A stretch of DNA of 29,776 nt from a virus: positions 1-29,776 of the IMG/VR virus record IMGVR_UViG_3300005347_000065; one strand, 5' to 3'. A model generated the notes under the pieces. That model saw nothing but the letters and a program-made list of their open reading frames with translations, searched no databases and was not told the DNA's origin. Position 1 is the first letter of the stretch, and each line of letters opens with the position of its first letter. Made by a program: the position numbers and the translations under genes. Below are positions 1,253 through 29,776 of this stretch, one piece after another.

Positions 1253-2313
1253 ACCGGCCGCCGGGCTACGCCGCGTTCTGGACGGCCTCCAGCGACGGCT
1301 CCTCCTGGTACCGCGCCGACCAGCCGGCGGCGGCCCTGGGCTGGCGCGGCCACAAGACGTGGGTGTCCGAGGTGCTGCCGGCCACGGTGGCGTCCCGGGC
1401 CCAGGCCATCGTCGGCTCCAGGGTGTCGCTGGAGGGCCCGTCCCAGACCTGGGCCGAACTGGCCGGACGGTCGGACGGCCCCCGGCTGATCCTCGACCTG
1501 GACGACGACTACTTCGGGGTCGAGAAGCGCAACGAGAACGCCTATCGGTACTGGTCCCGGCCCGACGTCCAGGACCGGCTCCGGGCCAACTGCCGGCTGG
1601 CCGACGCCATCGTGGTGGCCTCGGAGCGCATCGGCGAAGCCGTCGTCGAGAACGCCCTGAACCTCGGTTCGGGGCTGACCCAGAAATGGCCGGAGATCGT
1701 CGTCATCGAGAATGGCCTGCACGCCGGCCTGCTCTCCGTGCCCCGGGACTACGACCCCGAGGTGCTGACGATCGGCTGGGCCGGGACGTCGGCCACCGCC
1801 CACGACTTCGACCTGGTGGCCCCGGCCCTGGACAAGATCATGGAGTACTGCGGCCGGGTCGGCCGGGAGGCCAAGCTCGCCCTGATCGGCCTCCCGGTCT
1901 CCAACCCGTGGCTGCGCAAGCTCGGCGAGCGCTGGCCGGTGGAGCACGCCGAGTGGGTGGCCCCGACCGAGCGCTACCACTCGGCCGTCTTCCCGTTCGA
2001 CATCTGGGTAGCCCCCTACCGGGGCAACTCGTTCACGGACGCCAAGTTCCCGACCAAGGCCCTGGAGGCCGGGTTCATGGGCATCCCGCTGATCGCCTCG
2101 GACATCGTGCCCTACCGGGGGTGGGCACCGCCGGGCGGCGGCATCCTCACCGTGCCGGAGCACCAGCCGTGGCTGTGGGGCCGGTACCTGAAGGCCCTCG
2201 TCGACTCGCCGGAGACCCGGCGGACGATGGGGGAGGCCGCCCGCTCCCGGGCCGCGCTGAACATCCTCCAGGACCGGGCCAGCCAGTGGGAGGACGTGCT
2301 GTTCGGTGCCTAA
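1249..2313 (+). CDS. Glycosyltransferase, GT-B fold (family 4/1-like)
   Basis: A 354-residue putative glycosyltransferase with the two-domain GT-B layout. The N-terminal half carries an LDLDDDYFG stretch and an ADAIVVASE segment. The linker carries a VVIENGL motif. The C-terminal nucleotide-sugar-binding half opens with IGWAGTSATAHD and contains an AGFMGIPLIASDIVPYR loop, which resembles the E/G-x-P donor-binding region of family 4 enzymes. It would transfer a sugar from a nucleotide donor, possibly made by the preceding epimerase. The acceptor is unknown; a virion protein, DNA or a host surface glycan are all possible. The GTG start at 1249 overlaps the previous stop by 4 nt (GTGA), so translation is probably coupled. 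No strong Shine-Dalgarno was seen. Confidence 0.82.
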   Translation: MNRPPGYAAFWTASSDGSSWYRADQPAAALGWRGHKTWVSEVLPATVASRAQAIVGSRVSLEGPSQTWAELAGRSDGPRLILDLDDDYFGVEKRNENAYRYWSRPDVQDRLRANCRLADAIVVASERIGEAVVENALNLGSGLTQKWPEIVVIENGLHAGLLSVPRDYDPEVLTIGWAGTSATAHDFDLVAPALDKIMEYCGRVGREAKLALIGLPVSNPWLRKLGERWPVEHAEWVAPTERYHSAVFPFDIWVAPYRGNSFTDAKFPTKALEAGFMGIPLIASDIVPYRGWAPPGGGILTVPEHQPWLWGRYLKALVDSPETRRTMGEAARSRAALNILQDRASQWEDVLFGA

Positions 2314-2560
2314 CGGTAACCAGCGTGGCAGCGCCACCGATCGCCGCCGCCGCAAGGTGTGGATCTTCGAGCGGTTCGGCGTCGACGGCATCGTGACGTG
2401 CGCGTTCTGCTCGGTCCCGATGCTGCCCGAGGACGCCACGGTGGACCGGATCGTCCCCGGGTGCCGAGGTGGACGGTACGTCCAGGGAAACATCCGCCCG
2501 GCGTGCCGGCCGTGCCAGCAGGAGCAGGCCGGAGAACTCGGCGGCCTGGTGCAGAAATGA
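2306..2560 (+). CDS. HNH-type endonuclease domain protein (84 aa)
   Basis: An 84-residue protein with the ββα-metal HNH layout. A first CxxC (CAFC) is followed by VDRIVPGCRGG, then NIRPAC and a final CRPC, so four cysteines could bind a structural zinc. The position where canonical HNH proteins have Asp-His reads Asp-Arg, so the usual general-base histidine is missing. I have the impression this variant recurs in actinophage proteins, but its activity is uncertain. The GTG start at 2306 overlaps the upstream gene by 8 nt, and its TGA overlaps the next ATG. Sitting inside a glycosyltransferase operon, it could be a homing-type insertion or a domesticated nickase. It is not next to the terminase genes, so a packaging role is not supported by position. 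Confidence 0.78.
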   Translation: MPNGNQRGSATDRRRRKVWIFERFGVDGIVTCAFCSVPMLPEDATVDRIVPGCRGGRYVQGNIRPACRPCQQEQAGELGGLVQK

Positions 2561-3000
2561 TCCGGTTCGTCCTGATCCGGCTGCCGGAGGGCCCGGCGGT
2601 CTGGTTCGGCGCTATCGTTCTGGCCGTCTGGGTCGGCGGCATCTACGCGGTGCCTGGCCCGGTCTCCATCGTTCTGCTGGTGCTGGGGTACGTCCTGGCC
2701 CAGGCGTTCACCCATCGACTAAGGAGCATCCGTGGCAAGCAACAACCCCGTCATCGCCTGGACCCCCTACGGGAGGGAGGAGACGGTCTCCATCCTGGCC
2801 CGATACATGTTCCGGGAGCACTCCCGGGGCGTCATCGACCAGTGGTGGTTGTGCCTCAATACCGACCCCGGCCAGGCCGAGGACACCCGATACGCCTACA
2901 TGCTGGCCGCCGCCTACCCGGAGTGGATCAAGCTCAAGGAGCGCCCGGCCGGGCGGCCTCGGCGGACGCCGAAACAGCGCAACACCGGCTACTTCTATGA
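2557..3000 (+). CDS. Small membrane protein, two predicted TM segments; 3' end uncertain
   Basis: ATG 2557 overlaps the preceding stop (ATGA). The first ~55 residues look like a real membrane protein: a short N-terminus, a hydrophobic segment around residues 14-34 (WFGAIVLAVWVGGIYAV) and a second at about 37-53 (VSIVLLVLGYVLAQAF). After that the frame stays open to 3000, giving 148 residues, but the tail is Arg/Pro/Gly-rich and overlaps the next glycosyltransferase by 269 nt. That is probably out-of-frame translation. A TAA at 2720-2722, immediately before the next gene's ribosome-binding site, lies in the +1 frame. A natural 54-55-residue protein ending there would need a single-base shift. 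Function is unknown; its position suggests membrane-associated sugar transfer. Confidence 0.5.
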   Translation: MIRFVLIRLPEGPAVWFGAIVLAVWVGGIYAVPGPVSIVLLVLGYVLAQAFTHRLRSIRGKQQPRHRLDPLREGGDGLHPGPIHVPGALPGRHRPVVVVPQYRPRPGRGHPIRLHAGRRLPGVDQAQGAPGRAASADAETAQHRLLL

Positions 3001-3697
3001 GTACATGACCGACCGGGACACGGTGTTCATCCGGATCGACGACGACATCGTCTACCTCCACCCCCAGGCGATCAACCGGCTGGTGGCCCACCGGCTCCAG
3101 GCCACCACCGGGGTCGCCTCGTTCCCGGTGATGTGGAACAACTCGATCATCTCCTGGTACGCCCAGCAGGCCGGCGTCATCCCGTCAGCGGGCACGCGCA
3201 CGCTGATCAACCTGGAGTCGTTCCGGGACTGGGTCAGGATGACGGAGGAGGAGCTGAACCAGCCCCCTCGGACTGAGACGTACGACTGGCCAGCGGTCGG
3301 CGGCCCGTACTGCATGGACGCCGTGGGCTGGGCTGACGGCCGGTTCGCCGTCGCGCTGCATCGGCTCCTGCTGGAGAAGGTGGAGGCCGGCCGGGCCGAG
3401 GAGCTGTTCCTCTACCAGGACTACCAGCTCCAGACCGGGATGCAGTTCTCGGTGTCGGTGTTCGCCAGCCTCGGCTCCCTCTACGCTGATCTGCCGGACG
3501 GCCCCGGCGTGCTGGTGCCGTACGAGGAGGAGCACTGGCACACCGTCCACCAGCCGTCCGTGATCGGCTCGCCGAACAGCATCGTGGGGGACGCCCTGGT
3601 CAGCCACTACACGTTCTTCCCCCAGGGCCCCGTCGTGCGGGCCACCGACATCTTGGACCGCTACCGGTCCCTGGCCGACAAGGAGTGCGCCCGGTGA
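2732..3697 (+). CDS. Putative glycosyltransferase, GT-A-like (DDD motif)
   Basis: A 321-residue protein. The clearest motif is a hydrophobic strand ending in three aspartates (IRIDDDIVYL, D103-D105), the position of the DxD metal and nucleotide-sugar site of GT-A glycosyltransferases. The N-terminal part has β-strand/helix alternation (VIAWTPYGREET; WWLCLNTD). The C-terminal part has a VGGPYCMDAVGWADGRF stretch and a late His (SHYTFFPQ) that could complete the metal site. The GTG start at 2732 has AAGGAG (2721-2726) at a 5-nt spacing, the best ribosome-binding site in this operon. The following gene overlaps by 4 nt. With the epimerase and GT-B enzyme upstream it suggests stepwise building of a sugar modification. 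Donor and acceptor are unknown. Confidence 0.72.
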   Translation: MASNNPVIAWTPYGREETVSILARYMFREHSRGVIDQWWLCLNTDPGQAEDTRYAYMLAAAYPEWIKLKERPAGRPRRTPKQRNTGYFYEYMTDRDTVFIRIDDDIVYLHPQAINRLVAHRLQATTGVASFPVMWNNSIISWYAQQAGVIPSAGTRTLINLESFRDWVRMTEEELNQPPRTETYDWPAVGGPYCMDAVGWADGRFAVALHRLLLEKVEAGRAEELFLYQDYQLQTGMQFSVSVFASLGSLYADLPDGPGVLVPYEEEHWHTVHQPSVIGSPNSIVGDALVSHYTFFPQGPVVRATDILDRYRSLADKECAR

Positions 3698-3834
3698 GGA
3701 CGGCCAGCACGTTCGTCATCTGGGCCCTGCTCGGCCTGTTCGTGCTCACCCTGCTTTCGTCCTCGACCACCCCGGGCAACCTGGTGGTTCCTCGCCCTGT
3801 CCCACAGTCCAGCCCGCACACACCGGAGAAGTGA
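3694..3834 (+). CDS. Small single-pass membrane or secreted protein (46 aa)
   Basis: A 46-residue protein starting at GTG 3694 within the previous stop (GTGA). It has a positively charged start (MRTAS) followed by one hydrophobic helix (TFVIWALLGLFVLTLLSSS), then a short Pro/Ser/Thr-rich tail facing the other side of the membrane. It could be a signal anchor or a secreted peptide; no lipobox cysteine is present. I do not recognise it. Its stop overlaps or abuts the start of the next gene at 3831-3834. Confidence 0.55.
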   Translation: MRTASTFVIWALLGLFVLTLLSSSTTPGNLVVPRPVPQSSPHTPEK

Positions 3835-4082
3835 TGACCCAGCAGACCGCGAACGTCAACGTGCCCATGAACCAGATCATCGACCAGTTGCACCAGAAAT
3901 ACGCCCGGATCATCACCAATCTCATGCAGGAGAACGCCGAGTGGAACGCCGGCATGGACGTGATCATGGCCGAGAACGCGGAGCTGAAGGGCCAGCTCGC
4001 CGCGCTCCGGGGCCAGGGTGCCAGCGGCGGCCCCCGGTTCGGCTCGCTCGATCTGGCCGGCCAGGGCAACCCGGCCACCTGA
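3834..4082 (+). CDS. Small helical/coiled-coil hypothetical protein (82 aa)
   Basis: An 82-residue protein. Residues about 12-60 form a long amphipathic helix with heptad-like spacing (IIDQLHQKYARIITNLMQEN, then further leucines and glutamates). The tail is Gly/Ser-rich. ATG 3834 is chosen over GTG 3831 because GGAG at 3825-3828 lies 5 nt away. It is the last gene of the plus-strand run and is followed directly by a strong terminator. No function can be assigned; oligomerisation through the coiled coil is likely. Confidence 0.65.
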   Translation: MTQQTANVNVPMNQIIDQLHQKYARIITNLMQENAEWNAGMDVIMAENAELKGQLAALRGQGASGGPRFGSLDLAGQGNPAT

Positions 4083-4095
4083 TTCACTGAACAGC

Positions 4096-4132
4096 AGAGG
4101 CCCCTCTCCATTTTGGTTGGAGAGGGGCCTCT
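4096..4132. terminator. Bidirectional terminator between convergent operons
   Basis: A perfect 15-bp stem (4096-4110 with 4118-4132) has a 7-nt loop. It sits 13 nt after the last plus-strand stop and 29 nt beyond the last minus-strand stop, exactly where the two transcription directions collide. The symmetric stem would work in both directions. There is no long T tract on either side. Confidence 0.9.
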
Positions 4133-4161
4133 CGCTCTGGTCCTACCGGCCAGCAGGATGC

Positions 4162-4521
4162 CTACCCCACGACATCCGAGTTCGGCCGGGGGTCGGTCAC
4201 CGGGGTCACGCTGACCCGGGTGACGAGGGCGAGCAGGGTGACGACGAGAACCTGTGTGGAGCCGACCAGCTCCTGGCTGAACTCCAGGCCGTACCCGGTC
4301 AGCAGGGCGGCCCCGGCGGCCACCAGGCCGGTGAACGCGGCCGGAGCGATCGGCCGGACCGTCACGGCGTTGACGGCGCCGATGACGGCCGACAGGGCCG
4401 CGACGATGAGCGCGGCCTGCTTGGCCGAAAGCCCGTCGAACTGGAAGGTGACCAGCACGGCGAGCAGGGCGGAGACGGCCTGCAGGAGCAGGGTCGGCTC
4501 ACGCCGGATGAGGTTGGACAA
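4162..4521 (-). CDS. Putative holin, four hydrophobic segments
   Basis: A 119-residue membrane protein with hydrophobic segments at about 11-27, 36-56, 62-78 and 88-102, and a short charged N-terminus (MSNLIRREP). It lies directly downstream of the endolysin gene, which supports a holin role: timed permeabilisation of the host membrane to release or activate the amidase. The start is an unusual TTG at 4521, supported by an excellent AGGAGG placed 6 nt upstream. No ATG or GTG in frame gives a sensible length. It is the last gene of the minus-strand block before the terminator. A structural membrane role cannot be excluded from sequence alone. Confidence 0.72.
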   Translation of the reverse strand: MSNLIRREPTLLLQAVSALLAVLVTFQFDGLSAKQAALIVAALSAVIGAVNAVTVRPIAPAAFTGLVAAGAALLTGYGLEFSQELVGSTQVLVVTLLALVTRVSVTPVTDPRPNSDVVG

Positions 4522-4531
4522 GGGGTGCCTC

Positions 4532-4744
4532 CTACGGGGCGGGGGTGGGCGGTTCGGTGTTGCTGACGATGCGGTTCAGGAACGAACGCATCTGCCAGTT
4601 CTCGTTCTTCGGGTCCTCGGCCAGCCCGACGTCGGGGGCCTTGATGACGTCGGCCGAGAACAGCTCCTCGGCGATCAGCTTCAGGGTCGCGGGCCGGGTG
4701 AGCTCCTCGCGGATGATGGCACGCAGTTCGGCGGCAGACGCCAT
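4532..4744 (-). CDS. Probable internal translation product: free endolysin C-terminal domain (70 aa)
   Basis: ATG 4744 is codon 192 of the endolysin and in the same frame. Directly upstream on the minus strand is GAGGAGG (4750-4756) with a 5-nt spacing, as good as the endolysin's own site. Translation from here gives 70 residues: a helical segment (AAELRAIIREELTRP), an EELFSADVIKAP stretch, and a Pro-rich end. Known endolysins of some Clostridium, Enterococcus and other phages use such an internal start to make separate wall-binding subunits that assemble with the full enzyme. Here the same is inferred. The site could be a chance product of the Glu-Glu-Asp codons. Confidence 0.5.
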   Translation of the reverse strand: MASAAELRAIIREELTRPATLKLIAEELFSADVIKAPDVGLAEDPKNENWQMRSFLNRIVSNTEPPTPAP

Positions 4745-5317
4745 GATGTCCTCCTCAGTGGTGGGCTCCGGGCCCAGTTTGACGTTGCTGACTCGACGCC
4801 GGAAGGCGTCCATGTTGAAGGACGGATCGGACTTCCGGCCGGGCGGCGAGCAGGTCTCCTTGTGACCGCGCACGTCGGACACCGACAGGCTGAACTCCTC
4901 GATCAGCGCCTTGCAGAGCTTGGCGTAGGCGTCCATCTGCACCTCGGGCCAGTCACCGGCAGCGCCCGGGACGCCCACGGCCTCGGCCTCGATACCGATG
5001 GCGTGGACCTTCTCGAAGTCGACCAACCGGCTGATTCCGGCGTGGTTGGCCGAGCCGGCGGCGAACACGTAGATCGTCCCGGACCGGCCGATGCCGTACT
5101 GGGCCAGCGGGCCGGGCAGCTCGGAGCCGCGCCCGTGCAGCACGGTGTTGTAGCTCGGATAGTCGCCCCGGGCTCCGCCGTTCGCGGTGTGGTGACAGGT
5201 GATCGTCCGGATGTCCTGCATGTCCTGCGGCCGGGTGCGGGTGCGCCACCCGGGCACTTCAACCACGGGGTACCCGGTGAGCCGTGCGATGCGGGCCAGA
5301 CCTGTATACATCGTCAT
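4532..5317 (-). CDS. Endolysin: N-acetylmuramoyl-L-alanine amidase (Amidase_2 type)
   Basis: A 261-residue peptidoglycan amidase that would cut the bond between N-acetylmuramic acid and L-alanine in the host wall. The Amidase_2/AmpD-like domain spans about residues 10-180. Likely zinc ligands are in CHHTANG (H42/H43), GHKE (H152) and KSDPS (D164), with K162 and E110 near the active site. NHAG (N91/H92) is another family motif. A linker (about 180-192) leads to a ~70-residue C-terminal region, presumably for wall binding or oligomerisation. ATG 5317 has GAGGAGG about 5 nt upstream and overlaps the previous stop (ATGA); a longer reading frame to 5614 lies over other genes and is not used. A second strong start lies inside the gene at 4744. 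Confidence 0.93.
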   Translation of the reverse strand: MTMYTGLARIARLTGYPVVEVPGWRTRTRPQDMQDIRTITCHHTANGGARGDYPSYNTVLHGRGSELPGPLAQYGIGRSGTIYVFAAGSANHAGISRLVDFEKVHAIGIEAEAVGVPGAAGDWPEVQMDAYAKLCKALIEEFSLSVSDVRGHKETCSPPGRKSDPSFNMDAFRRRVSNVKLGPEPTTEEDIMASAAELRAIIREELTRPATLKLIAEELFSADVIKAPDVGLAEDPKNENWQMRSFLNRIVSNTEPPTPAP

Positions 5318-5637
5318 GATGCCTCCTCGTCTACCAGCGTACTGCGGCTTGCCGCCCGGCGCTGATCCCGGAACATCAGGAACGCCGAGGCCCACAGCAG
5401 GACGTTGATCGTCAGGTAGACGGCGAGCCGGACCCACTCCCGGCCGGACCAGTCTTGGCCGAACAGGGTGGTCATCAGGGCTAGCGACAGGATGCCGAAC
5501 GCCGAGCCCAGGAACGCGACCGTGAGCACACCGGCCGTCCGGGTGAACCAGAGGGTGAACAGGAAACGGCCGATGAAGATCAACGACGCCAGCCACGCCG
5601 TGCCGATGAGCCAACCGGTGACTAATGGAAGGGTCAT
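5314..5637 (-). CDS. Small membrane protein, three TM segments, lysis cassette
   Basis: A 107-residue protein with hydrophobic segments at about 8-30, 35-60 and 70-90, separated by a conserved-looking polar stretch (LFGQDWSGREWVRL) and ending in a charged cytosolic tail. It ends inside the endolysin start (ATGA) and begins in the stop of the preceding small gene. This tight coupling to the amidase suggests a second holin, an antiholin or another lysis-timing membrane protein. No family is recognised with certainty. Confidence 0.68.
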   Translation of the reverse strand: MTLPLVTGWLIGTAWLASLIFIGRFLFTLWFTRTAGVLTVAFLGSAFGILSLALMTTLFGQDWSGREWVRLAVYLTINVLLWASAFLMFRDQRRAASRSTLVDEEAS

Positions 5638-14494: not shown

Positions 14495-14715
14495 CTGAAA
14501 TCCTCTCGGCGTAGCGGCCAACGGATGCCGGCCATGTCGGGGTGGTCCTTCCACGGCCGGACCGGCAGTTGCGTCCCGGTCACGTCCCTGGTCTTGCGCC
14601 CCGGAAACAGGAACTCCAGCTCGGCGGGGTTGTCGTGGACCAGGATCGCACCCCCGAGGGTGAAGACGTCGCCGTCGTGCGTCTGGAGTGCGAACTGGCT
14701 CACGTCTTCACCCAC
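14491..14715 (-). CDS. Small hypothetical neck/tail protein (74 aa)
   Basis: A 74-residue β-type protein between the tail-terminator-like gene and the tube. GTG 14715 is supported by GGAG about 6 nt upstream. A GTG at 14703, overlapping the previous stop as GTGA, is an alternative. It contains FTLGGAILVHDNPAELEFLF and a basic C-terminal part (RWPLRREDF). It is not recognised; the position suggests a connector or tail assembly role. Confidence 0.58.
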   Translation of the reverse strand: MGEDVSQFALQTHDGDVFTLGGAILVHDNPAELEFLFPGRKTRDVTGTQLPVRPWKDHPDMAGIRWPLRREDFR

Positions 14716-15143
14716 CTGATCTCCAAGTCCTGCTGGTAGTGGGCGTAGGCGGCGGCGTCACCGTTGATCCGGCGGGGCTCGGACAGCGGGATCACGCAGA
14801 AAACGCGCACGAGGTTGAAGCCGGTCGGCATGGTGAGGATGCGCGGGATCATCCCGTGGTCCACGGCGGCGGCCTTGATGGCCTCAGCCGGCTGGGCGGC
14901 CAGGTTCCACGGCGGCCGCCCGGAAGACGGGGTGACGCCCCAGGAGTCGATCGACATCACCGGCTCGTTCACCGGCACCTCGGTATTCGGGGTGCCCCCG
15001 GTGGTGGCCACGGTGGTGAAGCCGGACGCCGACCAGGAGGAGTTGTCGGACGGCAGTTCGGTGGCGACCCGGTTGCCCAGGTACGGCACGGCGGACTTCA
15101 GCCAGGCCACGGCCACCATCTCGTTGCTCGGTGTGAACCCCAC
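14700..15143 (-). CDS. Possible independent start of the tail terminator (147 aa)
   Basis: Inside the large fusion gene, GTG 15143 (codon 508) is preceded by GGGAG at about 5 nt and begins VGFTPSNEMVAVAWLK. Translation from here would give 147 residues, a typical terminator length. ATG at codon 515 is another choice. If used, the phage would make both a plain terminator and one carrying the repeat stalk. This is inference from the ribosome-binding site and domain boundary. Confidence 0.4.
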   Translation of the reverse strand: MGFTPSNEMVAVAWLKSAVPYLGNRVATELPSDNSSWSASGFTTVATTGGTPNTEVPVNEPVMSIDSWGVTPSSGRPPWNLAAQPAEAIKAAAVDHGMIPRILTMPTGFNLVRVFCVIPLSEPRRINGDAAAYAHYQQDLEIRWVKT

Positions 15144-16664
15144 CTGGACTCCCGGTGCCTTGGCGAAGTAGCCGATGCCGCCGAGCTGGAGGCCACCGGA
15201 CGTGCCGACCCGTGCCGTGCTCGCCAGCGTGCCCTCTCCGGACAGGGCCAGAGCGCCCGTGAGGGCTCCGGCGGGCTGGCCGAACAGGGACAGCGCGCCG
15301 ATCCCGGACAGGCCGAGCGCTCCGGCCACCGCCAGCGTCCCGGCTCCGGACAATGCGCCGGAGCCGGACAGGGACACAGACCCGGCGAAGCCACCGGGGG
15401 CACCGGAGAGGGATAGCGTGCCGGCGCCGGATAGGGCCCGGGCGCCGGACGTGGCGGGGACGCCGACGGAACCCAGCGAACCGGCCCCACCAAGCGCCAG
15501 CGTGCCGGAAACGGACGGCGTCCCCGTGCTGGTGAGCGTACCGGCCCCGGACAGGTTGATCGAGCCGCCGCCGTCCGAGGAACCGGTGCCGGACAGGGCC
15601 AGCGTGCCGGTTCCGGACAGGGCCCGGGTGCCGGAGGTGACGGGGGTGCCGGAGGGGGTCAGCGTGCCCGATCCCGCCGTACTCAGGGTGCCGGTCGCTG
15701 TCGGCACCCCCGTCCTGCCCAGCGTGCCGGTTCCGGAGATGGTGAGTCCCCCGCTGACGGCGGGCGTCCCGGCCCCGGTCAGCGTCCCGGCTCCGCTGGT
15801 GCTCAGTGTCCCGGCCGCGCCTGGGCGGCCGGTGGCGGCCAGCGTGCCGGCGCCGGACAGGGCTAGTGCCCCGCCCGCGCTCGGCGATCCGGCGGCCGCG
15901 AGAGTTCCGGCGCCGGCCAGCGCGGCCGACCCGGACGTGGTGATGGTGCTGGAGTAGGTGAGCGTGCCGCCGCCGGACAGCGTGACCGTGCCGGAGAATC
16001 CGGTCGGCCCCGGGCTGGCCCCGCCGGGGTTGAAGCGCGGATCGTCGAAGTCGTAGGACTGGATGTTGCTGGAGCCGAGGTTGCCGAACCGCATCCGGTC
16101 CGAGGTCAGTCCACCCACGGTGGTGATCGAGCCGGAAATGGTGTCGAGCGGCGTCTGGGAATCGCCCAGGTAGACCCGACCCGTCCAGGTCCCGGTGGAG
16201 CCGAGGCCGGTGGCGTCCAGCTCCAGCCGGTAGTAGTTGGAGCCGTTCAGGGTGAGCGCGACCGAGCCGGTGAGCTGGAGGGAAGCCTGGTTGTAGATCT
16301 TGATGACGTCGCCGGTACCGATCTGCAACCGGCCCATGACGGCGTCGGTGGTGGAGCGAATCTGCATCCCCAGCACCGAGGCGTCGTTGGCGATCGACCC
16401 GGTGGGCCGGACGTACAACGTGCCGCCAACCGAGGTGTCGCCGGAGCCCTCCCGGAGCTCGGCGAGCGTCTGGCTGGCGTTACCAGCCGTCTTGGTGACC
16501 CGGAAGCCGTAGATGCCGTGGAACGCGGCAGCGGTGTCATAGGTCAGGGAAGCCGAGGAGCCCTGGGCCACGACGGCGAACGCATCGCCGGACCCGCCGC
16601 CGGAGTTGCCGGTGGTGACTGTTACGCCGGATGCCGATGCCCCCTCGGCGGTGTTGGTCTTCAC
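14700..16664 (-). CDS. Lectin-fold + tandem-repeat protein fused to a tail-terminator-like domain
   Basis: A 654-residue ORF with three parts. Residues ~20-215 look like a concanavalin/LamG-type jelly roll (AFHGIYGFRVTKTAG, TLYVRPTGS, YYRLELDATG, ending YDFDDPRF). Residues ~223-500 are about 14 degenerate 20-residue repeats of the form LSGxGTLxxxGxPxxxG, rich in Gly, Ser, Thr and Ala. Residues ~508-654 resemble a siphovirus tail terminator (VAVAWLKSAVP, GNRVATELP, FTTVATTGGTP, VNEPVMSIDSWG, PPWNLAAQPAEAIKAAA), which caps the tube and joins the head. The gene sits where the terminator normally is. It starts at GTG 16664 in the preceding stop (GTGA). The repeats may form a β-rich stalk or sugar-bearing surface. 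Confidence 0.78.
   Translation of the reverse strand: MKTNTAEGASASGVTVTTGNSGGGSGDAFAVVAQGSSASLTYDTAAAFHGIYGFRVTKTAGNASQTLAELREGSGDTSVGGTLYVRPTGSIANDASVLGMQIRSTTDAVMGRLQIGTGDVIKIYNQASLQLTGSVALTLNGSNYYRLELDATGLGSTGTWTGRVYLGDSQTPLDTISGSITTVGGLTSDRMRFGNLGSSNIQSYDFDDPRFNPGGASPGPTGFSGTVTLSGGGTLTYSSTITTSGSAALAGAGTLAAAGSPSAGGALALSGAGTLAATGRPGAAGTLSTSGAGTLTGAGTPAVSGGLTISGTGTLGRTGVPTATGTLSTAGSGTLTPSGTPVTSGTRALSGTGTLALSGTGSSDGGGSINLSGAGTLTSTGTPSVSGTLALGGAGSLGSVGVPATSGARALSGAGTLSLSGAPGGFAGSVSLSGSGALSGAGTLAVAGALGLSGIGALSLFGQPAGALTGALALSGEGTLASTARVGTSGGLQLGGIGYFAKAPGVQVGFTPSNEMVAVAWLKSAVPYLGNRVATELPSDNSSWSASGFTTVATTGGTPNTEVPVNEPVMSIDSWGVTPSSGRPPWNLAAQPAEAIKAAAVDHGMIPRILTMPTGFNLVRVFCVIPLSEPRRINGDAAAYAHYQQDLEIRWVKT
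15165..15998 (-). repeat. About 14 degenerate 60-bp coding tandem repeats
   Basis: In-frame repeats within the lectin-repeat-terminator gene. Each unit is about 20 codons (a few units are 1-3 longer) with consensus LSGxGTLxxxGxPxxxG. At the DNA level the units share GCC-GGA-CAG-type runs but are diverged, so expansion is old or under recombination. No spacers or identical repeat cores are present, so it is not a CRISPR array. Confidence 0.9.
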
Positions 16665-17632
16665 CCCTGGCGCCGAACCGTGACCGCCGCGCCGTTGTCG
16701 GCGTAGACGTTGCCGACCGTGACCGTGGCACTGGCGGACACCGGCATGGTGATGGTCCAGCTCGCACCGATCCGGGCGTTGCGGCCGAACCGGTTCCCGC
16801 TGATGGTGCCGACCGAGCCCAGAGTCCGGACGGTGCCGGACGTCTTGTTCGCGATGTTGACCGGGATGGCGCCACCGTCGATCAGGTTGTTCCGGATGTC
16901 CAGGCCGCTGATCAGGCCGACGTCCGGCTTGATCATCAGCACGGCGTTGGCGTGGGTGGTGCCGTAGAAGTTCGGCGCGTACTCGGGGGCAATGTTGCCG
17001 ATCAAGGTGTTGCCCCGGATCACCGTGCCGGAGCCGGATGAGATCTGGCCGTCGTCGGAGTGGGTGCCGTCCGCCGTGTCGGCCTCCCAGTAGAGGTCAT
17101 GGACGTAGCTCTGCCACACCTCCACCCCGCTCGGCCCGTCCGGGTCGTTGGTGTCCTGCACCCGGAAGCCGTCCACCACGTGGCTGACGTCGCACCTCCG
17201 CATCGTCCAGTTCCGGCCGATGATGCCGACGCGGGAGTTGTCGGGGTTACGGGGCCGTAGGGTGCAGTCCACCAGGTCGATGCCAATCCGGCCGGCGTCG
17301 TACGCCTTCACCAGGTGCCCGGAGCCGAGCGGGCCCTGCAGCTCGCAGTTGCGGTACGTCGCCCGGCCGACGCCGACCGGCGGGGTGATCTGGCCCTGGA
17401 TGATCAGGTTCTCGTACACCCCACCGGTCGCCGGGGTGTGGTTGGCGATGGTGAAGCGAGGGATGGCCGGCCAGGCCGGGTCGTCGTAGCACCCGGTGTT
17501 ACTCGCATCGGGGTCGTAGGTCTCGGCGACCAGGGACTCCCGGTAGGCACGCTCGGTGCCGAAGCCGACCAGGACGGTGGCCGCGCCGACCCGGCCGTCC
17601 TGGTCGGTGGCGGTGAACGTGAGGCTCGGCAT
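16661..17632 (-). CDS. Right-handed beta-helix virion protein (323 aa)
   Basis: A 323-residue protein. After a short Ig-like start (LTFTATDQDGRVGAATVLV), residues ~60-300 form successive short strands with Asn/Asp/Gly turns (YENLIIQGQI, YRNCELQG, IDLVDCTLR, WTMRRCDVSHVVDGFRV, VIRGNTLIGN, LDIRNNLIDGG, TISGNRFGRN). This is the pattern of parallel β-helix (pectate-lyase-like) folds found in tailspikes and polysaccharide-binding proteins. It may bind or cut a surface polysaccharide or serve as a virion decoration; catalytic residues cannot be assigned. ATG 17632 is 2 nt from the upstream stop. Its position between neck genes rather than in the tail-tip cluster is unusual. Confidence 0.75.
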   Translation of the reverse strand: MPSLTFTATDQDGRVGAATVLVGFGTERAYRESLVAETYDPDASNTGCYDDPAWPAIPRFTIANHTPATGGVYENLIIQGQITPPVGVGRATYRNCELQGPLGSGHLVKAYDAGRIGIDLVDCTLRPRNPDNSRVGIIGRNWTMRRCDVSHVVDGFRVQDTNDPDGPSGVEVWQSYVHDLYWEADTADGTHSDDGQISSGSGTVIRGNTLIGNIAPEYAPNFYGTTHANAVLMIKPDVGLISGLDIRNNLIDGGAIPVNIANKTSGTVRTLGSVGTISGNRFGRNARIGASWTITMPVSASATVTVGNVYADNGAAVTVRRQG

Positions 17633-17634
17633 GG

Positions 17635-17865
17635 TCAGACCGTGACCGTGAACGTGGCGACGGTCCCGTTGTCGCTGACCTTGGTCACGGTCTTGCCGGG
17701 CGCCGTGAGGATCGCGCTCCCGGCCGTCACCGTGACGGTGCCGGTGTTGCCGTCCTGGTCCGTGCCGGTGAACACCGTGACACGCGGGTCGTAGTCCACC
17801 GTGATGGTGGCGATCTCGCCCGGGAGGTAGGACGACTTGTTCGTGGTGACAACGGGATTCGCCAT
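17635..17865 (-). CDS. Small Ig-like β-sandwich protein (76 aa)
   Basis: A 76-residue all-β protein with an Ig-like pattern (VVTTNKSSYLPGEIATITVDY, then GTDQDGNTGTVTVTAGSAI and GTVATFTVTV). Ig-like domains decorate many siphovirus capsids and tails and may bind surface sugars. ATG 17865 has AGAGG at a longer, ~8-nt spacing. Part of the gene is a near-copy of the start of the next gene: 17749-17773 matches 17594-17618 at 23 of 25 bases, both encoding TDQDG. Probably a virion surface protein, with role inferred. Confidence 0.62.
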   Translation of the reverse strand: MANPVVTTNKSSYLPGEIATITVDYDPRVTVFTGTDQDGNTGTVTVTAGSAILTAPGKTVTKVSDNGTVATFTVTV

Positions 17866-17876
17866 GCTGGGGCCTC

Positions 17877-18218
17877 TTACGTCTGGGTGTAGGTGAGGGC
17901 CAGGACGTAAGTGCCCTGACTCGCGAACGCCTGGCTGGTGATCGAGCCGCCGTCCTGGTAGTTCCCGGTGCTGGCCGAGTGGACCCCGGCACCGATCAGC
18001 GTGGTGCCGGTCGGGATGTCGAACGTGGCCGAGGCCGTGATGACGCCGTTGGACGGCGCGCTCCAGCTCAGGGCCTTGCGGGCGTAGGCCGGGCTGCCGC
18101 CGGCCGGTTCGGTGCCCGCGCTCGCCCCGGGCGCCGTGGTGTAGACGGCGGCCCAGGTGGCCGAGGCCCCGTAGGCAGTCGCCAGGGCGTTCTTCATCGT
18201 TGCGGTCTGAATGGCCAT
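17877..18218 (-). CDS. Conserved-type phage structural protein, fibre-like (113 aa)
   Basis: A 113-residue protein. The first 30 residues (IQTATMKNALATAYGASATW, AAVYTTAPGASAG) are helical/strand and the GGSPAYARKALSWSAP segment resembles small proteins often annotated as tail-fibre-like or structural in actinophages. The remainder is β-rich (FDIPTGTTLIGAGVHSAS). ATG 18218 touches the preceding stop (TGATG). It heads the four-gene surface cassette inserted before the tail-terminator domain. Confidence 0.6.
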   Translation of the reverse strand: MAIQTATMKNALATAYGASATWAAVYTTAPGASAGTEPAGGSPAYARKALSWSAPSNGVITASATFDIPTGTTLIGAGVHSASTGNYQDGGSITSQAFASQGTYVLALTYTQT

Positions 18219-21963: not shown

Positions 21964-22941
21964 CTACGGGGTGTGAGGCCCTGGTCCCCGGGCCGCACGG
22001 GCACGGTTGCGGCGGGCGATCTCGGCAGCGGCCTCGGGCGATCCGGGCCGGGCCTTGAACGCGCCGTCCCGGAGGTTGCGCCGCGCCCGGTCGATGACCG
22101 ACTTGGGGAGCAAGGTGGTGGCCGACTTCACCAGCCGGTCTGCCGCCCGGAAGCGGGCGGGCTCCGAGGCGTGGTCGGTGAGTCCCCGGGCCACTGACCG
22201 GGCGGCCTCCCGGGCCAGCGCGACGTCGATGTCACCCGGCTCCAGATCGGTCAGCTCCAGTTGGCACCTGCAGTTCGGGTGCAGCGGCGGGCCGAGCAGG
22301 GGGCCGAGCTGGACCAGCGCCTTGTCGGCGTAGGTGAGCCCCGGTGGGAACGGTGCTCCAGGCCGGACGACACGGCCGGCGTAGGCCAGGCAGTTCAGGC
22401 AGGCGTTGCGCTCGGCGATCCACACCACGTTCAGCCCGGACTCCCGGGCCACCTCGGCCACGCCGAGGGCGATCCCCCGGTGCGTGACCCACGAGGCGTC
22501 GGTGCGCTGCGTCCGGACGGCGGCCTGGGCCTTGCCGACCACGGCCATGACGTCAGCCTGGTCCGTCATCGGCAACTGAGTGGACAGCACGATGGCCGCG
22601 TCCAGGTGGGCACCGGCCCGATCGTCCGAGGTGTCGATGACCCGCTGGAGCACCTCATCATGCAGCGGCGTGCTGGTCCGGGCGTCCACCTTCCCGGCGT
22701 TGCCCAGGACCACGCCCCGGGTGATGGCCACCTCCAGCGCCGAGCGGGCCGAGGGCACCAGTTCGGACAGGAGCCGGCGGACTAGCGTGCGCAGCACGTC
22801 CGGGGTAGCCCCACGCATCAGCGCGCTGACCAGGATGACGGCCACGGCGGCCAGCTCGGCGGCGAGCCGGGCGGACGCCTGGGCCTGGGCCTCCTGCTCG
22901 GCCTTCAGCGCGGCGGCCTCCCGGCGCTCCCGGTCGGTCAC
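21964..22941 (-). CDS. MuF-like minor head protein
   Basis: A 325-residue protein between portal and scaffold. Residues 1-60 form a helical region (AALKAEQEAQAQASARLAAE; VAVILVSALMRGA). The signature is CLNC (C181/C184) with the downstream HPNCRC (H221, C224, C226), the metal-type motif of the Mu gpF / SPP1 gp7 family, involved in portal-associated head assembly. GTG 22941 overlaps the previous stop as GTGA; the longer frame upstream overlays the preceding gene. Confidence 0.88.
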   Translation of the reverse strand: MTDRERREAAALKAEQEAQAQASARLAAELAAVAVILVSALMRGATPDVLRTLVRRLLSELVPSARSALEVAITRGVVLGNAGKVDARTSTPLHDEVLQRVIDTSDDRAGAHLDAAIVLSTQLPMTDQADVMAVVGKAQAAVRTQRTDASWVTHRGIALGVAEVARESGLNVVWIAERNACLNCLAYAGRVVRPGAPFPPGLTYADKALVQLGPLLGPPLHPNCRCQLELTDLEPGDIDVALAREAARSVARGLTDHASEPARFRAADRLVKSATTLLPKSVIDRARRNLRDGAFKARPGSPEAAAEIARRNRARAARGPGPHTP

Positions 22942-23153
22942 CAGTCCCCCGTGTCGTCGAACCGTCGACCTGCGATGATCTCGCCCAGGCGTTCGCGCTG
23001 AACCTGCACCCACCAGCGCAACCGTGTGCGCCACGGCGGCGGCGGGATGGGCGGACGAGTGTCCGGGATCACACCCTGGTCCATCAGGAGTTCGTCGGGG
23101 ACCTGGATGTAGCCACCGAGCTTCACCGCCTTCAGAACCTCCTCGTCGCTCAT
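22938..23153 (-). CDS. Small hypothetical protein, head region (71 aa)
   Basis: A 71-residue protein between portal and MuF-like genes, coupled to both (ATGA at start, GTGA at end). It begins MSDEEVLKAVKLGGYIQVPDE, continues with a Pro-rich DTRPPIPPPPW segment and then basic/aromatic residues (RTRLRWWVQVQRERLG). No family is recognised. The Pro and Trp stretches suggest binding to a neighbouring head protein. Confidence 0.62.
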   Translation of the reverse strand: MSDEEVLKAVKLGGYIQVPDELLMDQGVIPDTRPPIPPPPWRTRLRWWVQVQRERLGEIIAGRRFDDTGDW

Positions 23154-28418: not shown

Positions 28419-28844
28419 GCCCTCGTCCGAGACCAGATCGAGAAGCTCGGAATCCTGGCTGGCCCAGCCCGGGCGCACCCGGCCCTCGCCGAGCCACGCC
28501 TGGCGCGACGGCGGATCGATCAGCGCCAGGCCGAGCCGGATCAGGCCCTCGGGGTCGTCGCGGAAGTGTCCGACGATGTTGTTGCACGTGTTGCAGAGCA
28601 GCATCCTCACCTCCCCGGTCCGGTGGTTGTGGTCCACCGACAACCGGCGGGCCTTACCGGTGGCCCGCCGGCACCCCCAGCACCGGCCGAGCTGGAACAC
28701 CAGCAGGAGCCGGTACATCGGCACGGTGATCTTGTACGTGCGCACCACGTACGCCTCGTGCGCGGCCTCAGACGCCTCTGTGCGGGCCTGGCGTGGCTTC
28801 CGGGGCCCGGCGGACGCCGGAAGGCGTCCTCGACCGTTCAGCAC
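28416..28844 (-). CDS. Endonuclease VII-type recombination nuclease
   Basis: A 142-residue protein of the recombination endonuclease VII family, which cuts branched DNA during phage packaging or recombination. CWGC (C55/C58) and CNTC (C84/C87) form the zinc knuckle. VDHNHRTGEVRMLLC holds the DHNH active site (D71-H74). The downstream DDPEGLIRL helix is also typical. GTG 28844 overlaps the end of the methyltransferase gene by 7 nt; the longer reading frame covers that gene and is rejected. The N-terminal 40 residues are basic. Confidence 0.9.
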   Translation of the reverse strand: MLNGRGRLPASAGPRKPRQARTEASEAAHEAYVVRTYKITVPMYRLLLVFQLGRCWGCRRATGKARRLSVDHNHRTGEVRMLLCNTCNNIVGHFRDDPEGLIRLGLALIDPPSRQAWLGEGRVRPGWASQDSELLDLVSDEG

Positions 28845-29776
28845 GGCAGGAACGTTTCCAGGATCGCCCTGGCGAGCAGGGGCGGCACAGCGTTGCCCAC
28901 CTGGAGGTACCGCTTGCCGAGGCCACCCGCGAACCGGTGCTCCGGTGGGAACGACTGGAGCGCGGCGGCCTCCTCGACCGTGACCCGAATCGACGTCGGG
29001 CCGAACTGTGGCTCGCCACCGGCTCTGTCCTTGTGACCCGGGGCGGCAATCCGAGGGTCGCCCTGGACCGTGGTGGCCGGACGGCGATGCACCCACTCGA
29101 CATTGCCTACTCTGCTAGCGTGAACTGTCGGAGCCCGCCCCGACAGTTCACGCTCGGTACCGTTGGCCATCCGGCCGGATCGGTACACCCATTTGTTCCG
29201 GTCGATCTTGCCGGTGACCGTAGGGGACGGCTGGTCAGTGGTGCGTTCACCCCGAGCCGCAGGATCACCTCCGGTGCCGTAGTTGGAGCGCATCACCCCG
29301 TCGAACCCCAAGGCATCGGCCATGCTCACCCAGGGCAAGACACCATCGTCCAGGCGTGACGGTGAGCGCTCCCAGTACCGGGAGTGCGTCGGCGTCGGAG
29401 GTGCCGCTGTCACACCGTCCAGCCTAGCGATCATGAACGCGCGTTCCCGGGTCTGCGGCACGCCGTACTGCTCGGAACGGATCTTGCCTGTCCACGTGGA
29501 GTAACCGTGAGCACTCCGCAGGACGGCGGCGCACGCCTCCCAGACCGGGAGGACAGCGCCCACCTGCTCCCAGACGATGTAGGTCGGCCGTCCGGCCAGG
29601 GCGACCCGGAGCGGTTCCAGCACCAGCCAGGTGCGCGGGTCACCGTCGTCCGGGCGAAACCGGGCGCCCCGGGCCACCTCGTCGATCCCGGCCAGCACCC
29701 GGTGCAAGTTCCGGCGACCCTCACCGTTACCGGCCGGGCTGAAGGTCTGGCACGGCGGGCTGCCGATGTGGATGCC
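28838..29776 (-). CDS. C5-cytosine DNA methyltransferase (5' end beyond window)
   Basis: A partial gene: 312 residues are visible and the frame stays open at the window edge. At the edge is the catalytic GSPPCQTFSPAG motif (Cys in PCQ). Then come a WEQV motif (the usual ENV), a QYGVPQTRERAFMIA motif with the Gln-Arg-Arg role, a target-recognition region (about 120-250) with SPTVTGKI and RPATTVQGDPRI, and the final GNAVPPLLARAI. It would methylate a cytosine in phage DNA, most likely as protection against host restriction. A start near 29707 is only apparent. It is coupled to the endonuclease VII gene. Confidence 0.93.
   Translation of the reverse strand, partial: GIHIGSPPCQTFSPAGNGEGRRNLHRVLAGIDEVARGARFRPDDGDPRTWLVLEPLRVALAGRPTYIVWEQVGAVLPVWEACAAVLRSAHGYSTWTGKIRSEQYGVPQTRERAFMIARLDGVTAAPPTPTHSRYWERSPSRLDDGVLPWVSMADALGFDGVMRSNYGTGGDPAARGERTTDQPSPTVTGKIDRNKWVYRSGRMANGTERELSGRAPTVHASRVGNVEWVHRRPATTVQGDPRIAAPGHKDRAGGEPQFGPTSIRVTVEEAAALQSFPPEHRFAGGLGKRYLQVGNAVPPLLARAILETFLPC

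Follow-up and report, generated by a model that had tools for sequence, protein, structure and literature searches.

A tail terminator domain joined in one reading frame to a repeat stalk and a variable tip in a siphophage-type virus

The window, that is, the whole stretch of DNA that was analysed, is a virus record of 29,776 bases that carries a siphophage-type structural operon on its minus strand. Within this operon we found a 654-aa open reading frame whose C-terminal 147 residues are a tail terminator by sequence, gene position and predicted fold, and in which the terminator is preceded by a stalk of repeats and a variable tip. In our proposed model, to which we give about an even chance, the product is a neck-anchored adhesin with the terminator as its virion anchor, a short terminator is also made, and the terminator ring is probably mixed. 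The parts of the gene are as follows.

14700..16664, minus strand: fusion gene (654 aa, GTG start), jelly-roll-like N-terminal domain, 14 repeats and tail terminator
15999..16664, minus strand: variable tip domain, residues 1-222, a predicted beta-sandwich like ConA-like lectins and CBMs (low to moderate confidence)
15144..15998, minus strand: stalk, residues 223-507, with 14 repeats (xLSGxGTLxxxGxPxxSGxx, about 20 residues each) and a short junction
14703..15143, minus strand: tail terminator domain, residues 508-654 (phrog_123, homology to Zuko and KimJongPhill, Foldseek)
15141..15153, minus strand: putative internal ribosome-binding site (RBS) GGGAG, 5-nt spacer and GTG for a 147-aa terminator, at the start position of unfused homologues

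The earlier note had proposed that one open frame runs through the N-terminal domain, the repeats and the terminator, and this was confirmed for the 654-aa ORF. The frame (16664-14700) starts within a GTGA that also includes the stop codon of the upstream gene, and third-position GC was 0.85-0.97, the coding type, in each 60-codon block, with a single frame throughout. The scan of GC by codon position across the ORF revealed no stop and no frame change between the repeats and the terminator, the joint at which such a break had been named beforehand as evidence against the fusion; since third-position GC was uniformly high in one frame, the ORF holds no hidden frameshift. Profile scans of IMG/VR recovered, besides an unfused terminator family, the same fusion on four further contigs, L005, L006, L007 and L009 (together the L005-L009 lineage). 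As L006 and L007 were identical over 6,607 bases, there are three distinct fused sequences besides the window. Upstream of the terminator their frames stayed open over 501-520 codons, at a third-position GC of 0.82-0.85, and the fused members, including the window, formed one clade (support 0.89). The collection of phages that was searched contained no cultured member of this clade. As one metagenomic-type virus record, the window could have lost a stop or frame boundary through a sequencing or assembly error; however, four other contigs carry the same continuous frame in divergent sequence, and this recurrence refutes an error, the chance of which we regard as negligible. A total of 99 loci were examined for long open frames upstream of the terminator. 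The remaining long frames had third-position GC of about 0.43-0.65, indicating that they are the wrong (shadow) frame of a neighboring gene; L069, L088, L075 and others were rejected as further fusions on this ground (0.5-0.6).

The assignment of the last ~147 residues to the tail terminators, which had been put forward on the basis of the window alone, was borne out by homology, gene slot and predicted fold. In tblastn searches the domain was 43% identical to the annotated terminators of the Streptomyces phages Zuko (gp16) and KimJongPhill (gp19), which begin at the equivalent position and occupy the same gene slot. The tail terminator family phrog_123 matched the domain (E=2.6e-4) as well as 22 of 25 relatives, while Pfam gave no match for it and a PDB sequence search with the terminator profile returned only a weak match, to the Mycofy1 terminator gp11 (E=0.25). 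An AlphaFold model based on a 25-sequence alignment had a pLDDT of about 84-96 over the domain, and its top Foldseek matches were solved terminators, with Mycofy1 first (9lwa_B, 1.3e-5), followed by those of Douge (8zdj_m), phiXa (9lbn_K), Bxb1 (9d94_Ia), a gene transfer agent and T5 (8bcu_A); predicted viral terminators in BFVD were matched as well. The absence of a terminator fold, the other outcome named in advance as speaking against the reading, was therefore not seen. In the model the domain opens with a helix at residues 514-525, directly after the stalk.

As proposed in the earlier note, the domain also lies in the right genomic slot, with the HK97 gp10-like gene before it and the tube protein after it, and the gene order is the same in Zuko and KimJongPhill, the inserted cassette described below excepted. 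The structural operon of the window reads as follows.

26316-24700, minus strand: large terminase
24703-23150, minus strand: portal
23034-21964, minus strand: MuF/protease-like minor capsid protein (weakly similar to a head maturation protease profile)
21915-21292, minus strand: scaffold
21167-20190, minus strand: capsid
19450-19016, minus strand: adaptor-like protein (by gene order and resemblance)
about 19019-18684, minus strand: stopper-like protein (by gene order and resemblance)
18604-18218, minus strand: tail completion/Neck1 protein, HK97 gp10-like, the usual terminator neighbor (phrog_5, 6e-12)
17877..18218, minus strand: cassette gene, 113-aa Gp80/phrog_240-like, fibre-associated protein (PF23140, 4e-6; phrog_240, 8e-12)
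17635..17865, minus strand: cassette gene, 76-aa small protein of Ig-like size (59% to L009)
16661..17632, minus strand: cassette gene, 323-aa protein, beta-helix/pectate-lyase-like by sequence appearance (no family match)
14347-13772, minus strand: major tail (tube) protein, downstream of the fusion (PF25681, phrog_2175, phrog_117)
13057-11099, minus strand: tape measure

A surface cassette of four genes, which the earlier note had not recognized, is inserted between the gp10-like gene and the terminator, at the same place in the window and in the contigs of the L005-L009 lineage, and its last gene is the fusion. The Gp80-like protein was 72-73% identical in that lineage, and in Gordonia phages a Gp80-like protein precedes the minor tail proteins. 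Across the fused members the small protein spans 76-88 aa and the beta-helix-like protein 323-378 aa, that of the window being weakly similar (28%) to the 378-aa proteins of L005 and L009. A search for relatives of the window's beta-helix protein found nothing, PDB sequence searches with the beta-helix proteins gave no meaningful match, and the Pfam search returned no family for these proteins, the whole fusion, the tip or the stalk. An extra gene of roughly 118 aa (MTDLIFQKFERSTY...) lies between the beta-helix and fusion genes of L005 (about 4096-4443) and at the equivalent place in L007; it is absent from the window and L009 and had no family match. Among the relatives, the unfused L008 (60% in the terminator) carries a 480-aa beta-helix-like gene (4128-5570) between the stopper and the gp10-like gene, and L003 a 1,035-aa fibre-like gene (1338-4445) downstream of the capsid gene. 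Surface genes have thus entered the neck operon repeatedly, at different points in related phages. One further unfused relative was found in Kitasatospora in a single scan of genome contigs. Near the right end of the window, a C-5 cytosine DNA methylase is encoded on the minus strand (28838-29707; PF00145, 1e-13).

The stalk was found to contain exactly the 14 units of ~20 residues that had been noticed earlier, with units starting at residues 229, 249, 269, 289, 309, 329 and 349 and then at 371, 391, 411, 432, 452, 474 and 494. Its self-identity at a lag of 20 was 0.39, compared to a shuffle maximum of 0.26 (2000 shuffles, maximum over lags 5-59). The model placed two short strands in each unit, with a pLDDT of about 44-71 for most repeats. 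The stalk of L005 has 15 repeats, exactly one whole unit more. The repeats are rich in glycine, serine and threonine (72 G, 43 T and 42 S of 278 residues). At the other end of the window, on the plus strand, positions 146-2313 encode an NAD-dependent epimerase/dehydratase (PF01370, 2e-37) and then a group-1 glycosyltransferase-like gene, followed by a small HNH endonuclease-like gene (2306-2560; HNH_5, 5e-6). Since the epimerase and glycosyltransferase genes and a G/S/T-rich stalk occur in the same phage, glycosylation of the virion is conceivable.

The earlier description of the N-terminal domain as a jelly roll held in part. In the full-length model residues 70-180 of the tip mostly had a pLDDT of 60-87 and gave lectin and GH131 jelly-roll matches (E about 0.01-0.05), while residues 1-66 stayed below 50. 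The tip modelled alone had a pLDDT of 50; this low-confidence model matched legume lectins, ERGIC-53, CBM66 and CBM2 of the evolved Dit of phage J-1 with E of about 1e-5, but with a TM-score of only about 0.4-0.5. A ConA-like jelly roll is thus likely on the predicted models but not firm, because the Foldseek lists also contain many unrelated beta-rich proteins. A search with the window's tip itself brought up no relatives, nor did a query of tip plus stalk against annotated phages, and the wider family was reached only via the terminator profile. Identity between the tips of most relatives was 23-32%. For L005 against L009 the tips were 31% identical, the stalks 86% and the terminators 97%, and a diverged tip on a conserved stalk and terminator is the pattern of a receptor-binding tip swapped on a constant stalk, as would be expected of an adhesin. 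We also considered whether the extension is a surface structure that binds no receptor, serving as a protective or spacing stalk or as a scaffold for the beta-helix protein. The G/S/T-rich repeats do resemble a spacer and the cassette carries other surface proteins; however, replacement of the tip independently of the stalk and terminator is typical of receptor-binding domains, and the Foldseek matches included lectins and a phage carbohydrate-binding module, so that we hold this alternative to be quite improbable.

The suggestion that GGGAG and the GTG at 15143 provide a possible second start was strengthened, as both the RBS and the start are conserved there. In the window GGGAG lies at 15153-15149 and the GTG, codon 508, at 15143-15141, the position at which unfused relatives, when aligned, have their start codons. 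The Shine-Dalgarno (SD) core in the window lineage is GGAG at a spacing of 5 nt, whereas the L005-L009 lineage has GGAGG (SD core GAGG) 7 nt from the aligned GTG. The residues encoded at the RBS differ between the two lineages (APGVQV in the window, TGGSRV in L005-L009), and the junction residues as a whole are 30% identical. An SD core precedes 16 of the 279 internal in-frame ATG or GTG codons in the window and 5.5-8.5% of those in relatives, and we estimate the chance of the match at the internal site at ~0.3-0.5% if the two lineages are independent. No SD core precedes the long start at 16664. The SD energy of the window's internal site was not outstanding, ranking 22nd among 275 internal start codons, and the argument for an internal start therefore rests on its position and conservation; likewise, because 47% of the valines in the window are written GTG, the GTG at codon 508 adds little by itself. 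An internal RBS and an in-frame start are kept in the relatives, the arrangement of an in-frame two-start gene, and from the sequences we infer that long and short terminators would be made from this one gene.

Two other accounts of the products bear on this arrangement. In the first, the fusion is obligate, all six terminator subunits carry a stalk and tip, and the internal SD and GTG are an ancestral relic. Every ribosome that starts at 16664 makes the fusion, as no stop separates the parts, and the sister of the fused clade, L040 (support 0.99), points the same way: in-frame coding runs from its contig edge into the terminator (1-555), with 38 coding-like codons visible (third-position GC 0.97) and no ATG, GTG or TTG at the ancestral terminator start. 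L040 is probably another fused terminator with a different N-terminal partner, and as it has no ancestral start codon the short form may not be universal. However, L040 is readable only to its contig edge, the SD core and GTG were kept in two lineages despite diverged junction residues, and the upstream start has no SD core, which leads us to rate an obligate fusion as rather unlikely. In the second account the short form is the terminator of the virion, the neck has no fused terminator, and a protease cleaves the long protein, or it acts elsewhere as a free or capsid-bound adhesin. The internal start is strong in the relatives, and the structural gene at 21964-23034 shows the weak resemblance to a maturation protease listed above. 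In addition, the terminator of phage T5 stays monomeric with an N-terminal His-tag (PMC11784142), so N-terminal additions may hinder ring formation, and a bulky one could hinder ring assembly. Nevertheless, every fused member preserves both the frame and the terminator domain as part of the long form, and the junction, at 30% identity, has no conserved cleavage motif; we thus consider this account unlikely as well.

Solved structures of siphophage necks show a hexameric terminator between the stopper and the tube. In the model that we prefer, of a neck-anchored adhesin with long and short products, translation coupled to the upstream gene through the GTGA overlap would yield the 654-aa chain, whose terminator domain would join the ring of six subunits that caps the tail tube. 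From this ring the 14-unit repeat would extend as a stalk, and the jelly-roll tip would contact sugars on the host surface alongside the co-encoded Gp80-like and beta-helix proteins. The ancestral RBS and the GTG at codon 508 would yield the stand-alone 147-aa terminator, and the ring would probably be a mixture of long and short subunits, with fewer than six stalks and crowding thereby avoided. The two-product output, ring mixing, outward exposure and sugar binding are all inferred steps of the proposal. The main helices of the R4C terminator are found along the periphery of its ring (PMC10276861), and as the domain of the window begins with a helix right after the stalk, an outward exit of the stalk is plausible by analogy. 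The T5 result shows that additions at the N-terminus can matter, which may be a reason why the short form has been retained.

By homology the protein of the window is a terminator, and its architecture is new. Siphophage terminators (lambda gpU, SPP1 gp17, T5 p142, Douge, Mycofy1; phrog_123) are homologous to its C-terminal 147 residues and share the predicted fold and the gene slot, with the HK97 gp10-like gene on one side and the tube protein on the other. In the matched structures, however, they are small stand-alone proteins of 117-165 residues, whereas here the domain comes after about 500 residues of tip and stalk, and the 654-aa frame could give a small product only via the internal GTG. 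Adhesin extensions are known on tube proteins, in TpeX of 936 phages, SPP1, lambda and p2, and SPP1 and some 936 phages make long and short tube-protein forms from one gene (PMC6669499). These are likewise ring proteins with an adhesin or CBM extension, but there it is the tube protein that is extended, with a frameshift in SPP1 and in the long 936 form, whereas in the window the cap protein has an N-terminal extension in a single frame and the short form would come from an internal start. By analogy, the protein would work like a tube-protein adhesin extension while lying outside that family. Separate collar fibres with carbohydrate-binding modules are also known (PMC6669499). The neck passage structure of TP901-1 and 936 phages resembles the model in having neck fibres that end in such modules, but it is a separate collar protein with a BppU-like domain and a coiled-coil stalk, while in the window the anchor is the terminator in the same chain, the stalk is of beta-rich repeats, and no helices were predicted outside the terminator. 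Phage endolysins can be made as two polypeptides via in-frame internal starts (PMC9430671), likewise from one frame with two starts and a C-terminal short product; they are enzymes, whereas the window encodes a virion ring protein by homology. In mycobacteriophage Douge, surface glycan-binding domains occur on many virion proteins, and the proteins named as binding glycans do not include the terminator (PMC13033339). In the open-access literature searched, we found no fused or N-terminally extended terminator and no terminator used as an anchor.

Fibres, baseplates, tube proteins, capsids and separate collars are all known to bear phage adhesins. Tentatively, and with somewhat less than even confidence, we propose that tail terminators can anchor receptor-binding fibres, with mixed rings, assembled from one gene's two in-frame products, forming a neck collar of exchangeable adhesins that needs no separate collar protein. 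If this is true, the head-tail joint's own ring would be added to the attachment points of adhesins, a gene with two start sites would offer a means of limiting how many adhesins a ring carries, and the presence of surface-protein genes in the neck operon of these phages would be explained.
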